Source: Adineta ricciae (Eukaryota; Rotifera; Eurotatoria; Adinetida; Adinetidae). From it: a stretch of 64,000 nucleotides of DNA. A program made the translations under genes and the position numbers. Where the stretch lies: assembly GCA_905250025.1 (NCBI GenBank), contig CAJNOJ010000165.1, positions 173,247-237,246 on the forward strand. The letters are read 5' to 3'. Shown piece by piece: positions 3,001-10,309 of this stretch. Each line of letters opens with the position of its first letter. Position 1 is the stretch's first letter. Under the pieces are notes generated by a model. That model was not told where the DNA came from. It saw only the letters and a list, made by a program, of their open reading frames with translations, and did no database searches.

Positions 3001-6000
3001 TCTCGGCGAGGTAGTATTAATCTGAGAAGGTTTGATATATTGTCTTGTTGAACTTTCGTTACAGGATCGTCGCGACCATTTGACGATATTCGTGAAATCG
3101 AATTGAATGAATTAGGAGGTCGATATGATTTTGATGGAGATACACAATCGGAATCTGCAAGTATTGTTGAACATAAACGATTTCGATTATTATCACCGCC
3201 GAAAAAAGTCAAACCAAAGTAAAGCTACGGAAGAATGATTGATATTTATTTCTCCTTCATTGTGTATCAAATAGATTATACAAACCGGAAATCGAGTGTT
3301 TTGACGAACCATTAACCATCCGTCAAACAGAAGAGAATACTGGTTCAACAGGACGATCGTATACTGGCTTTCTGAAGAGTCTCTTTACTAGTGGTGGACA
3401 AGCAGGTGCAACTGGTACTGCACTTAGTCCAACAACAAATACGGCATCATCTATACCATCCATGGTGCCATCTGAAAAATTAACTGAGATCGATTCGAAA
3501 GGTGTTAAGGGTAAGAAAAGTTTCTGAACTATTTTAGCATAAATAATAGAAATCTACTTTTATCAGGAATGAAAGAACTCTCACGTGTAGTCTATTCAGC
3601 TGAACGCGGTAAACTTGAAACCGTTCTGCTCAAGCCTGGTGCTGGTGCTGGAACTAAAGGTGAATTCTTCTGCTAGAATAATCATCAACATTCTTCATCC
3701 TATTGTAGAAGAGAGTCCTCCCAAAGTTCCTAAAGCAACATCATTGTCATCATCAACATTGGCTAGCATGGGCGGACCAACAGTGGGTGGCAAATTAAAA
3801 CCAAGTTACCATGGTAAAAAGGGTAAACATAAAGATGATAGTGCCGTTCGATCGCCAACACTAAGGTACGTACAAATCGTTTTTCTCCTTGATATTTTTG
3901 AAAGATAAAATTTCGTTCTTAGCCGACCGCCACGTATATCAACATCTCAAGCTCATGCAAAAAGTATAGGCGGCATCCCATCAGGCGCCAAACGAGCGAC
4001 AACTACAACTACAACAGCAATTGATGAATTGGATAATCCATATGCTGATACAGATTTACATAATCAATTCATTGCCGCACCCAAATGCGATAAGTGCGGA
4101 CAAGCTATTGAGTACTATAGTGAAGAGTGTATTGGTCATTGTATAATTGTCTGTGAAACACTTGTTCATCGTGAACCAAGTATAGCTGCACCATTATTGA
4201 TGGACATGATCGAAACAATAGGACGTGTTGCTGCATCGCATATTTATACGTGGCAAGAAAATTCCACAGTTATTGCGCCAGCTAATTCACGAAGTATTGC
4301 ACAACAATTCATTCGTTGTACTTTTCAACAACTAGCTGCTAACAATATTTGTTACCAATTTTTTCAACAACATTTTCGAGGTGCGTATAATGAAATTAAT
4401 CGATCCTAATTAATAATCTTTTTCTTTCTTCAGATGAAAAATTACTTAACACTATAGCTTTATCTTTGAACGATTTTCCAGAATTCAACTCAATCATTGC
4501 ATTGAAATGGCTTCTCAATGTAATAGTTCAATTCTTGAATTCCTCTAGATCTTTCGTCTCTGTTTAGGATATGAACAAACAAAAAAGTCTCTCATTGGAT
4601 ATTTGTACGACATTACTGAGTAATATTGCACAATTCATGGAATATATTCCAATCGACTCACCAGGTCAATTGTGGACTAGTGTCTTCCTTGAATTCGACT
4701 TTTTATTCGATAAATTAACACGAGTTTATACAACACTCAAATCCAGTGCACCGGTCACTTATGATTTAACACCAATTCTTCGAATTATGATGAATATCTT
4801 GAAAGTGCCATATATAGCTACTGTAAGACTAGTATTGGATCCATTTTCGAAATTATTAACATTCATTCTACAAAATGGAACATTTCAATTGGAACATATT
4901 ATTGAACTATGTTCATTGAGCAATCGAACATTTACTCGAGTACATACCATTGACGAAAAGAAAGAACGGATGTCTTTTGAAAAACGTATGTTTTTAGGAT
5001 CGTGAAAAGTTATTATTGCCACGAACGATCGTTAATGTTCTCGTTGAAGCTATGCTTCATCGATATCCATGTCCAGATCGAAATCTACTACTGATGATAC
5101 AAGTAAATCGAAAAGACGTCGATCGAAATTCTTCTCTAAATATAACAAAACTCGTTTTTAGTTAATTTTACTTGACGCGGGTGGCACAATTTATGCGTCG
5201 GCGATTGTCAGCGATGACGTTCGTGCATATGATCCCCATAATGTTGTGCGTTTGTGGTCTTAGTGCCGTGATGTTTTTTTCCTTTAGTTACAATCTATCG
5301 AATTGTTCTACATGTTCTTTTTTTGCGAACTTAGGTTACTACCAACGGTGCCGAATGCATGAAACATTACTTAAATGAAACTGTTGCATTCATTGCTGAC
5401 ATTCATACGATTACAAAAATCAAAGTAAGATAAACGAAACTCAGACGCAATGATTCAATGTTTGTTCGTTGTTCCAGAGTACAATGAAAGAAAAGAGTGA
5501 AAAGCAGCAACTCTCGAATTTAACGGAAGATACACTGGGTGGACAATTGAAAGCTGGTTTAGCACAATATTTAGCTTTAGAATTTACAAAAGGTGGTCAA
5601 CGGGATGCAAAAGCAATCGTACGATTTCTTCCTTGGCTCTACAATCCGCCAACATCAGTTCAACAAGGGTTTGTTTTCATTAAAATGTACACAAGTTTTC
5701 ATATTCTTGTTTCTTCAGAGCAAAAGATTTCGTTGATTGCATTGATCGTATTCGATTTCTCTCATGGTTAATGATTGGTTCATTGACTCATGCAGCAATA
5801 ACTCGAAATGAAGGAACAATCATATGTCATCCTTTACCTGTTGACGCCAGTCAATCGATTGCCGATTACATTTTATACATTCTAACTGGTTTTGCTGATC
5901 AATCAAAAACATCGGTCATTCATATGTCATCACTTTTTCATTCGTTTATTCTTTGTCAAGTAAGAAGACAAAATAATAACTAAATTCTACTTATTTCTCA

Positions 6001-6818
6001 ATTCACACCTAGTTATGGACAATGTATTGTGAACAAGTTAATCGTGGACATGACCCCGAAGCACTCGTTGCCATAATGGATTTCTGGGCGCGAATTACAC
6101 CTGGTATACTTCATCTGTTATCCCATTCGAAAGTGGTACGTATAGATGCTTCTTAACGTTGACTTCAAATATTGTTCGAGAATTTTCCATGATATGAATT
6201 TGTAAATATTTTTTAAAACACATCAATGGTAAATTTCAGGATAAAGAAAGTCCTAACAAACATCGTGAGGTATTTTCGATGTCTTAAATATACACACGTG
6301 CTTATCTATTGAGCTTTATTTATATACACTGTACTTTCGTTTTTGTTTCCTTGTCTTCATGAGATTTTTGTGATATATACACTTTTCTATTGATTTTTAG
6401 CTTGCTGAAATGGTCAATTTGCATTTCTTAAGTTTAATCGAAGCCTTACAAGAGATTAATTCCATTGTCTTAGCTAATGTAACAGTTTTGGAATTCACTT
6501 TGACGGATTTTCATTTTCAATTTTCATGTTCTTAGTTATTTGCAATGTGGGTACCTGTTCTCTATACGCATCAAAGTCAATTACCAGCCCATGTTCAAGT
6601 TCGTCTTCAAACCTGTTTGAATCATCAACCATCATCGGAAACGCAAGGTGATCTACGATTTATGTACGGTATGTACTTATGCCATCTCTTTTAAATTAAG
6701 CACTAAGCACTTTTCTCGTCTTCCAGCTATTTTACTCAAGTGGCTCAATCGTTTACAATTTAAAATCGGACAAATCGAAACTCAATCTAGTCATGCCGCA
6801 CAATTTTATAGTTTATAA
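1..6818 (+). CDS. unc79: UNC79 homologue, NALCN channel complex subunit (5' partial)
   Basis: UNC79 is a large helical scaffold that, with UNC80, supports the NALCN sodium-leak channel at neuronal membranes. The reading frame is open at base 2, so the N-terminus lies left of the window; roughly 1,600-1,750 residues are here in many exons. Introns I could place include 446-497, 847-893 and 1091-1213. Family-like segments are recognisable in order: a Cys motif (SQCSFCEEY) near 630, the block ending LSWEFFLNRFDTLSLE near 1920-1975, a degenerate Cys pair (CDKCG) near 4085 followed by a REPSIAAPLL stretch, RFLPWLYNPP near 5620-5650, and a C-terminus ending AAQFYSL. A poly-Gln run (about 757-805) and Ser/Thr-rich linkers are lineage-specific. 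TAA stop at 6816-6818; AATAAA at 6852-6857. UNC80 was considered, but the C-terminal half matches UNC79 as I know it. Exon joins are by eye. Confidence 0.9.
446..497 (+). other. Example of a tiny phase-0 intron in UNC79
   Basis: GTAGGT donor and a pyrimidine-rich tract ending in TTAG. Removing these 52 bases joins a frame-2 exon to a frame-3 exon without loss. Most introns in the window are of this size, which supports the compact, rotifer-like gene style. Confidence 0.85.
757..805 (+). repeat. CAA/CAG run encoding poly-Gln in UNC79
   Basis: A mixed CAA/CAG triplet tract read in frame as a glutamine run within an unconserved linker of UNC79. It is likely length-variable. Confidence 0.85.
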
Positions 6819-6935
6819 TCATGTATATGTCTAAACGTATCTTTTTTTCTCAATAAATATCGCTAGTATAGTTTATGTCAAGAAAGCAGAAGAAACGTCA
6901 ATTGATCGTTTTGATTTCTTTTCATATAGATAGAT

Positions 6936-8963
6936 ATGCGTGTTGTCATTATCGGTTCTGGTCTCATAGGTCGATGTTGGAGTGTTATCTATGCCCGAGC
7001 TAAACAAGATGTTTTTCTCTTTGATACGATGTCGTCGATGCTTGAGATTGCTGTAAAAGAAATTGATCTCCAACTTGGTCAATTGAATCAATTTGATTTG
7101 TTGTTTAATCAAACACCTGCAGAAATATTGAAACGTATCCAAACGATTGATACAGTTGAAAAACTACATGAACTATTTCGACAAGGAATCGATCATATTC
7201 AAGAATGTATACCAGAGGATATACAAATGAAAACGAAGCTTTTTCTACAGCTCGATGACATTGTTCCCGCGAATGCATTGATAGCTAGTTCATCTTCGTG
7301 TATTATGCCATCGAAATTTACTGAAAATATGAAAACAAGAAATCGATGTATTGTCGCGTAAGTTGAACGAAAGGATTGACAATAGAGTTCATAAGAACTT
7401 AACCGATTTAGACATCCGATTAATCCTCCGACAACAATTCCACTTGTTGAAATTATTGGTGCACCATGGACTGATCCAGCGTTTGTTGATTTAGCTATGG
7501 AACGTTATCGTTCTTTTGGTATGGAACCAATTCGATTGAAAAAAGAAGTCGATGGTTTCGTTGTTAATCGCTTGCAATATGCATTACTATCATCGGCTCT
7601 TCAACTAGTTCAAGATGGTGTTGTTGAGCCTGAAGACGTCGACCGAGCAATTACACATGGTTTAGCGTGTCGATGGTCATTTATGGGACCATTTCAAACG
7701 ATTGATCTCAATGCGCCGAAAGGAATTAGTGATTGTAAGATCAGATTTTCGCTCGATGGAATCAACTAACTCTTCTTTTCATTAACAGATTTTGATCGAT
7801 ACGGTTCGTCGATGCAACGTGTTCTAACTGACATGAAATTTCCATCGGATTGGACGCAAGAAACAGTGAACAAAGTCGATCATTGCTTTCGCTCGAAATA
7901 TCCTGTTGGAGAAAACGGAAGTGGTATAAATGAGAAAAAACTCTGGCGTGATGAACGTTTGCTAGATTTGGCTAAACACAAGCAAACATACGTTGATCGA
8001 GATTATCGCATTGTACGTTTCCCATTGACGGTACCGAACGATCAAGGACGCGGGATGATTCAAGCCATTGAAAGTGAGCTAAAACAAGTCTATAAACAGG
8101 TTCAAATAAGATTGGTACCAGCTGATGAAGCAAATAATATGGATTTCTCGGCAAAACCTTGGAATTTAGCTTCATCACAACTTGGAAATAACGGCGTTTT
8201 CTGTCAATTAGGCGGAGCGAAAAATGTTGAGTTTCAACAAGGTCATTCAATTCGCTTTGATATATCCAGTGTTCTTGACCAATTACACATTAAAAATGAG
8301 CAAACGCTTGTGATTGGCCCTGGTGCTGCTGATCAAACGCATCTTTCTATCAACGGCGAACTTGTCTTTAACATGAAACTTGATCAATACAATAAAATTA
8401 CTACTCAACGTTCATACAGCTCAATGATACCGAAAGATACCGATGAGCCATGTCAACAGTTATATCTACCGAAAACCTGTGGCCCGTTTCAACATGTTAT
8501 GATATCAACAGTTGATCAGCAAAAATCTGCTATTTTAATCGAAATTGACGTACAGGAACGTCTCAGTGCTGAACATGAAGAAGAAAACAACTTCATATCT
8601 GTTATAAGACGTAGTGTAAAGCAATATTCCAAAGGACCAATGGCACTCGGAGGCATTTTTCGCATAGAAAAGGGTACCGTCAAAGCACATGTTATGCCAC
8701 CCTTTGTCGATGATGATCTAACAAGCAAACAGCAAGTTGATCAATGGTTGAAATTCTATGATATGCACGCACCTTTGAACTGTTTATCCGTTCTTTTAAC
8801 CGAAGATATCAACAATGCTGGTTTTCGTTTAGAACATTCGCACTTTTTCAGTGATCATGGAGAATGTGGTCATTACCATTTTGATACTACACCGAAAGAA
8901 GTACATTATCATGGCTATTTTATTGTATGTGAAGAGGCTGTTCTGGTCGATCCAGTTGTATGA
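6936..8963 (+). CDS. CRYL1 (L-gulonate 3-dehydrogenase) fused to C11orf54/DUF1907 domain
   Basis: Exons 6936-7357, 7412-7734 and 7789-8963 give 639 residues. Residues 1 to about 315 are a lambda-crystallin/3-hydroxyacyl-CoA-dehydrogenase-type NAD enzyme: Rossmann start VVIIGSGLIG, HIQECIPED, SSSSCIMPSK, the catalytic-His motif AHPINPPTTIPLVE, and VDGFVVNRLQYA. Residues from about 340 to the end match C11orf54 (PTD012), ending in the zinc motif with H598, H600 and H610 (spacing H-x-H-x9-H) inside a GHYHFDTTP context. The junction lies inside the third exon, so the fusion does not depend on splice prediction. Each half is close to full length for its family (about 319 and 315). CRYL1 oxidises L-gulonate to 3-dehydro-L-gulonate; C11orf54 is described as a zinc-dependent ester hydrolase. 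AATAAA at 9059-9064. It starts only 117 bp after the UNC79 stop. Confidence 0.92.
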
Positions 8964-9267
8964 ATAGTAAACCACGTGTTTTTTCTTTTGATTCGTTCGC
9001 ACTTGGCATAGTCTTTAGAAGTCTAATTTTCAAATGAGTATATTTTACTGCAATCAAAAATAAATCGTGATTTGTTCTAAGACCGTGTTTTATAGTGATA
9101 TCAATGATTCTTTAGTGTCTTTCCTGCAAAAGAAATGTTGATCTATTGGGTATTGATTACTAGTGCAATTTATATTTGGATGACATGTAGCAAAGAAAAA
9201 AAAACAATAAAAAGAAAAAGAAGAAGACAAAACAGGTGACTTTTTATGATGATGTTTTTGTTTTCTT

Positions 9268-10309
9268 CTAAAAGATGATTTTATCTAACGATAAAGTGTT
9301 GCTCTTCGTATTGGTACTTGACGTGACCGCATGTTTTTTTCGAATATGTTGAAGTAGATGATTCAATTCGGAAAACTGTTCGTGACAGAAGATACACGAT
9401 GATTGTAGTCGACGAAGATCAAATGTGGATGGTAGAGGTATTGGAGAAGGTCGATGATGTGGAAAAAGTAATGGTTGTTTCATATACGAACTTGGAAATA
9501 GTGGAGGTAGCATTCGTTGAGGACTTCCATTACACATTGTTCGAAAGATTTGATCGGATGTTTTCTGATGCATTCCGTTTAAAATAAATCCATCTTTTTT
9601 CGATAAATCAACATTGAATGAAGACGATGAAGAAGACGCAGGAAAAGATGGATATTCATGAGTAGTATCTGAAATGGTCGATGAAGACGTATTTGTTGAT
9701 CGAGAATCAGAACGTGACGAGCATCGCAGATGTTTATTTGCAATTGATTTCTGGGCAGATGACAAAGCTGGAGCTGTCACTTGTGTTGACTCATTGGATG
9801 CTACTGATGATTGAGGTTTATGCCATCGGCGATGTGATGCTAAGTTGGCTGGGCAATTGAATGTTTTGTCGCATTCAGGACAACTAAATCACACATAAAA
9901 ATAACTGTCTTGCTTGTAAGTTCTTTCGTTATTGGTGTTCTTACCGAAACTCGATGTGTACTACTCGTGGACATTTGTGCATTGCGAGTGCAAAGGCATT
10001 TTCATATTTTACTTTACATAATTGACAAATGTAATCGCCAATGATATTCTTGATTTTTCGTAATTCTTCAACAGCTTCAGGTGTGATTTCAACATAATTC
10101 ATTGTTGGTTCGATATCACCTCGTACTTCTTTCCATTTTTCATACTCTTCCCAGTCTGTAATTCGTGTACCAGCTATAGGAGAATCATTTGTATTCGCCA
10201 CTGCTGATGCCGTTGTTAATACTTTCTTCTTTTTCGAGGCAGTTATTGAAACTGAACTACGATGATCATTGCTTGTTGGTGCTGATCGTTTCTTGCTTGC
10301 CGTCGCCAT
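9268..10309 (-). CDS. insm: INSM/nerfin-1/EGL-46-type C2H2 zinc-finger transcription factor
   Basis: Exons 10309-9945 and 9883-9268 give 326 residues. Three fingers are visible: a C2HC-type CQLC...HKC (about residues 93-111), the hallmark [20 protein letters not shown] that follows directly, and a C-terminal CIFC...HIRKKH finger. The first two in tandem are the signature of insulinoma-associated proteins (fly nerfin-1, worm EGL-46), regulators of neuronal and neuroendocrine differentiation. Between the fingers lies a long Ser/Thr-rich linker. I chose the ATG at 10307-10309 over one 42 bases upstream because the extension (start of MMSEVIFFLNLVKS) looks like untranslated sequence. No N-terminal SNAG motif is seen, and vertebrate INSM1 has more fingers. 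An upstream coding exon cannot be excluded. Confidence 0.87.

Follow-up and report, generated by a model that had tools for sequence, protein, structure and literature searches.

Does a reading frame that carries both a CRYL1-type L-gulonate dehydrogenase and a C11orf54 domain encode one protein and, if so, which reactions would such a protein bring together? This question is raised by a locus in a 64,000-nucleotide window from the rotifer Adineta ricciae (contig CAJNOJ010000165.1, positions 173,247 to 237,246), and positions of the locus are given here as those of the window. The gene lies on the + strand at 6936-8963 and consists of three exons (Table 1), whose spliced product has 639 residues with zero internal stops. 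An initial sequence-only reading had described a single frame of 639 residues; this length is exact, but the frame becomes continuous only once two introns are removed. When intron 1 is excised, the alignment with lambda-crystallin runs unbroken through ...CIVAHPINPP.

Table 1. Features of the fusion gene and its surroundings in the window
Feature	Position	Strand	Description
Likely trans-splice (spliced-leader) acceptor	6908..6929	+	Pyrimidine-rich stretch with AG at 6928-6929; candidate by sequence
Exon 1	6936..7357	+	N-terminal NAD-binding part of the CRYL1-type domain; Gly-rich loop GSGLIG
Intron 1	7358..7411	+	GTAAGT...ATTTAG, 54 bases, GT-AG
Exon 2	7412..7734	+	Remainder of the NAD domain, then the larger part of the C-terminal 3HCDH domain; HPINPP, VVNRLQY
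Intron 2	7735..7788	+	GTAAGA...TAACAG, 54 bases, GT-AG
Exon 3	7789..8963	+	Final part of the CRYL1-type domain, followed by a short junction and the entire C11orf54/DUF1907 domain; stop TGA
Junction	7986..8069	+	Residues 315-342; lambda-crystallin alignment stops at 314, DUF1907 profile starts at 343
DUF1907 (C11orf54) domain	8070..8936	+	Residues 343-631
His-rich metal site HSHFFSDHGECGHYHFD	8835..8885	+	Residues 598-614; aligned with human HTHFFSRHGEGGHYHYD
AATAAA poly(A)-type signal	9059..9064	+	3' of the stop codon

The first half of the protein matches 3HCDH_N at residues 3-185 (Pfam, E 1.5e-39) and 3HCDH at residues 189-261 (Pfam, whole-protein E 3.8e-14). Its best match in PDB is rabbit lambda-crystallin 3ado, which covers residues 3-314 with 239.5 bits (E 6.7e-70) and is accompanied by human lambda-crystallin 3f3s over the same residues (226.1 bits), the next dehydrogenase relative in PDB reaching only 102.3 bits. 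Among the 19 NCBIfam models listed, NF004783 is the sole one above its cut-off (352.6 bits vs 347), and the identity to the human and rabbit proteins is 39-40% (217-228 bits, blastp). In a tree of 30 rows, a branch with a support of 100/98 separates eight other dehydrogenases from the group that holds the rotifer domain, 19 bacterial rows and two mammalian lambda-crystallins. Judged by its sequence, the rotifer dehydrogenase half belongs to a wider CRYL1-like group in which the bacterial rows are included.

The second half matches PF08925 with 197.5 bits against a curated cut-off of 25 (E 4e-58, profile positions 2-281 of 285), and human PTD012 (1xcr) matches residues 349-635 in a comparison with PDB sequences (125.2 bits, E 2.6e-35). 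These Pfam and PDB-sequence matches bear out the initial description of a full CRYL1-type dehydrogenase followed by a full C11orf54 domain in one protein. In the C11orf54 family, zinc is bound by three conserved His whose positions are left unnumbered in the source (PMC12435205). The rotifer motif H598-x-H600...H605...H610-x-H612-x-D614 is complete, and every His of HxHFFSxHGExGHYHxD is kept in the alignment with the human protein, so that the site had rightly been called intact. In this alignment, the identity between the rotifer domain and human C11orf54 is 32%; since the identity is only at this level for one half and 39-40% for the other, the substrates of both rotifer halves are assigned by homology.

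A 23-base query, taken here to be the bdelloid spliced leader, matches the genome at 41 places, always with a single mismatch, which falls on the first base (T instead of the G in the query), and its reversed control has 0 matches. Spliced-leader genes were seen on G000:C2, C6, C8, C43, C77, C79, C99 and C146 (L005-L014 read), many of them as head-to-head pairs approximately 150 bases apart; in the ten loci read, the printed copies are followed by a GT donor. Because these genes match, the genome is recognized as that of a bdelloid rotifer, and a published account, in which the letters of the query were not found, describes a 23-nt trans-spliced leader common to bdelloids of two families, with none found in Brachionus (PMC1925144). 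At the fusion gene, the AG of the candidate acceptor lies six bases ahead of the start ATG and follows a run of 20 bases of which 15 are pyrimidines (by eye); another AG (6932-6933) stands between this acceptor and the ATG. An apparent multi-exon gene on the same strand (4500-6818, by eye) ends about 120 bases before the fusion ATG; one of its exon pieces (5454-5669, 72 aa) is without a Pfam match. Such close spacing, together with an acceptor before the fusion ATG, would fit a spliced-leader operon. On the other side of the gene, a minus-strand frame with a C2H2 zinc finger above the Pfam cut-off (9268-9888) is convergent with it.

An operon of this kind also provides the setting in which the unity of the protein may be questioned, since CRYL1 and C11orf54 could be two tandem genes across which the frame is open by accident. 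The spliced-leader genes of the genome would permit operons, the fusion is known here from genomic sequence alone, and an AATAAA at 8391 and an ATTAAA at 8289, both within the region that codes for DUF1907, might conceivably terminate transcripts early. However, the exon-3 frame is open for 397 codons, whereas the longest frame among 1000 single-base shuffles of 7770-8960 has 149, and neither a stop, an AATAAA, an ATTAAA nor a pyrimidine-rich AG acceptor was found in the junction, which lies within one exon as previously read. Each of the 13 AGs across residues 290-360 has at most 10 pyrimidines in the preceding 20 bases, the first AG having only 9 bases before it in the scanned stretch. In-frame Met codons within residues 282-440 occur only at 338 and 366, so that a protein started independently at the junction would probably miss the first part of the DUF1907 domain: as residue 349 is aligned with 1xcr residue 28, the human domain would start near residue 322, the linker would probably be short and, when the alignment is extended backwards, Met 338 would already fall within the domain. 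The identical domain pair is moreover known from three rotifer genera (PMC12435205), and two separate genes are therefore considered very unlikely. In the gene model, known from sequence, both domains occupy one spliced frame of a bdelloid rotifer.

It is highly probable that the product of this bdelloid gene is an enzyme with two functions in the glucuronate-xylulose (uronate) pathway, as predicted from the two domains. The N-terminal CRYL1-type domain would use NAD+ to oxidize L-gulonate to 3-dehydro-L-gulonate, a beta-keto acid, which the C-terminal C11orf54 metal domain, with its His-rich site, would decarboxylate to L-xylulose, and DCXR would then reduce L-xylulose to xylitol. Both activities would be carried by a single chain, and the joining of the domains may help to hand over the intermediate. 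The sequence-only reading had proposed that the C11orf54 domain takes the product of CRYL1 as its substrate and serves as 3-dehydro-L-gulonate decarboxylase or in a related step; for the putative rotifer enzyme, the decarboxylase role agrees with the assignment in print (PMC12435205). It had also alluded tentatively to recent work tying C11orf54 to L-xylulose formation, and this matches the study of Malatesta et al. (PNAS 2025, e2506597122), in which, as summarized in PMC12435205, C11orf54 was identified as 3-dehydro-L-gulonate decarboxylase and enzymatic measurements were made to verify this activity. The same assignment is repeated in PMC12921845.

The fused C11orf54 half might have a different job, either ester hydrolysis or a non-metabolic role, with the fusion being neutral. 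The ester-hydrolase annotation of the family goes back to p-nitrophenyl acetate hydrolysis (PMC12435205), and a role in DNA repair has been proposed for human C11orf54 (PMC10241914). This reading is hardly probable, considering that the human enzyme is assigned in print as a decarboxylase (PMC12435205) and that the fused partner comes from the family that makes the substrate of the decarboxylase.

A search of the 130.5-Mb assembly gave one match to PF08925, and a six-frame search of the assembly with the whole protein, in which two candidates were scored and which a strongly diverged, intron-rich gene could escape, revealed no further CRYL1-type locus; for each of the two domains, the fusion is the sole locus recovered from the assembly. 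A 3HCDH gene on G000:C70 (P0001) was ruled out as a stand-alone CRYL1, with 25% identity, a score of 133.2 bits against the NF004783 cut-off of 347, and every NCBIfam match below cut-off. This gene (L003:483-2469) is intronless, encodes 334 residues and lies approximately 120 bases downstream of an SDR-like frame on the same strand (by eye).

As for the following steps, two DCXR-like exon matches at G000:C4:1060045-1060515 are 49 and 62% identical to an approximate human DCXR query. None of the 50 DCXR matches listed has an identity above 62%; full-length single-exon SDR genes rank higher among them by E-value. The best PDB match of one of the two exons is L-xylulose reductase 1pr9 (63.6 bits, the next being 42.7). 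Of seven FGGY-kinase matches, the one compared with PDB sequences is XYLB-like, with a score of 252.4 bits for xylulose kinase 4bc2, and a MIOX gene was found in the assembly. A gene with an ALO domain (lactone oxidase type) is also present at G000:C70:99548-100394 (L027, L028); judging from its domain, it might provide an alternative fate for L-gulonate, towards ascorbate.

Relatives of the CRYL1 half are also found in bacteria. Matches at E 1e-30 or better occur in 41 of the 299 Pseudomonadota genomes, other dehydrogenases included, and 12 places with scores of at least 187 bits are spread over 10 genomes of this set. A limit of 1e-20 yields 363 plasmid records, other dehydrogenases likewise included, and seven of the 25 plasmid matches listed were opened, having been picked for organism variety (L050-L056). 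In six of these seven loci, the gene directly downstream of the CRYL1-like gene is annotated as a 3-keto-5-aminohexanoate cleavage protein, which we take to be BKACE (beta-keto-acid cleavage); SDR genes are nearby in five, and gluconolactonase and sugar ABC-transporter genes in two each. According to these annotations, the bacterial pair would repeat the same logic with another partner, a dehydrogenase for beta-hydroxy acids preceding an enzyme for beta-keto acids. As bacterial proteins that are equally similar to the rotifer domain sit among other genes, the wider CRYL1-like group may differ in substrate.

These relatives raise the possibility that the CRYL1 half was acquired from bacteria by horizontal transfer, which would be compatible with the uronate-pathway function. 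Bdelloids carry many foreign genes, and bacterial proteins score as high as or higher than mammalian ones against the rotifer domain, the best having 44% identity and 268 bits (tblastn; only roughly comparable with the mammalian blastp bits, as the programs differ). In the 30-row tree, two groups of bacteria, the two mammals and the rotifer branch from a single polytomy within the well-supported CRYL1-like group, and a clade of rotifer and mammals is not rejected (p-AU 0.336), a result that agrees with either origin. Besides the rotifer, the tree has only two animal rows; the letter make-up is unusual both in the rotifer and in the mammals, and one branch (L042) is long. The partner domain suits CRYL1 chemistry. 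Transfer seems unlikely, and its stronger form, in which the CRYL1 half also acts on another beta-hydroxy acid and the fusion serves a different pathway, is extremely improbable. A bolder combination, which is likewise doubtful, is that the animal has no source of the two enzymes other than the fusion, which would act as a beta-keto-acid handover machine in which a bacterial CRYL1 half was joined to a native C11orf54; if true, the same dehydrogenase would have been coupled twice to different beta-keto-acid enzymes, its kin adjoining BKACE in bacteria.

The DUF1907 family occurs in some bacteria (Galperin, PMC12435205). In the bacterial genome contigs searched here, 81 stretches fit a pattern and 0 were confirmed as DUF1907. 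An exact-motif match in a Pseudomonas contig was rejected; it lies antisense to an apparent transporter operon in a genome without a PF08925 match, and is thus regarded as due to chance. DUF1907 was not detected in the 398 genomes searched from the phylum to which this Pseudomonas belongs, where controls were also without a match, so absence from these genomes is unproven; none was found in plasmids, and the exact motif was not found in viral contigs. In Sulfolobus acidocaldarius, a PF08925 match below cut-off appears at the looser limit of 0.01.

Both the rotifer fusion and the function of C11orf54 are already known, having appeared in print in 2025. DUF1907-3HCDH fusions in Adineta, Didymodactylos and Rotaria were cited as support for the decarboxylase role in a PNAS commentary (Galperin, PMC12435205), and no further published account of the fusion was found among the literature matches listed for C11orf54, DUF1907, PTD012, CRYL1, gulonate and rotifers. 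Because the rotifer-fusion argument and the enzymatic measurements are both in print, the window adds detail and no new claim; what is added here is the gene anatomy, the copy number, the pathway context and the bacterial CRYL1-like/BKACE neighbourhood. The fusion, in a genome from which no further copy of either half was recovered, represents clean Rosetta-stone support for C11orf54 as the enzyme of a step that had been missing from the human glucuronate pathway for decades.

Compared with known systems, the protein in the window shares its two domains with the rotifer DUF1907-3HCDH fusions of Galperin (2025, PMC12435205) and may be one of these very proteins, the difference being that its dehydrogenase domain is placed here in the CRYL1-like group. 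CRYL1/lambda-crystallin (3ADO, 3F3S; EC 1.1.1.45) has the SSSxC, HPxNPP and NRLQY stretches in common with the rotifer half over residues 3-314, whereas the solved mammalian chains consist of the dehydrogenase alone (313-319 residues). Similarly, human C11orf54/PTD012 (1XCR; EC 4.1.1.34) corresponds to the rotifer protein in the whole DUF1907 domain and the motif HxHFFSxHGExGHYHxD, but is mostly a stand-alone protein. The bacterial CRYL1-like proteins next to BKACE are 40-45% identical to the rotifer CRYL1 half and likewise have a neighbour enzyme for beta-keto acids; in contrast to the rotifer arrangement, this partner is a cleavage enzyme encoded by an adjoining gene, neither DUF1907 nor fused.
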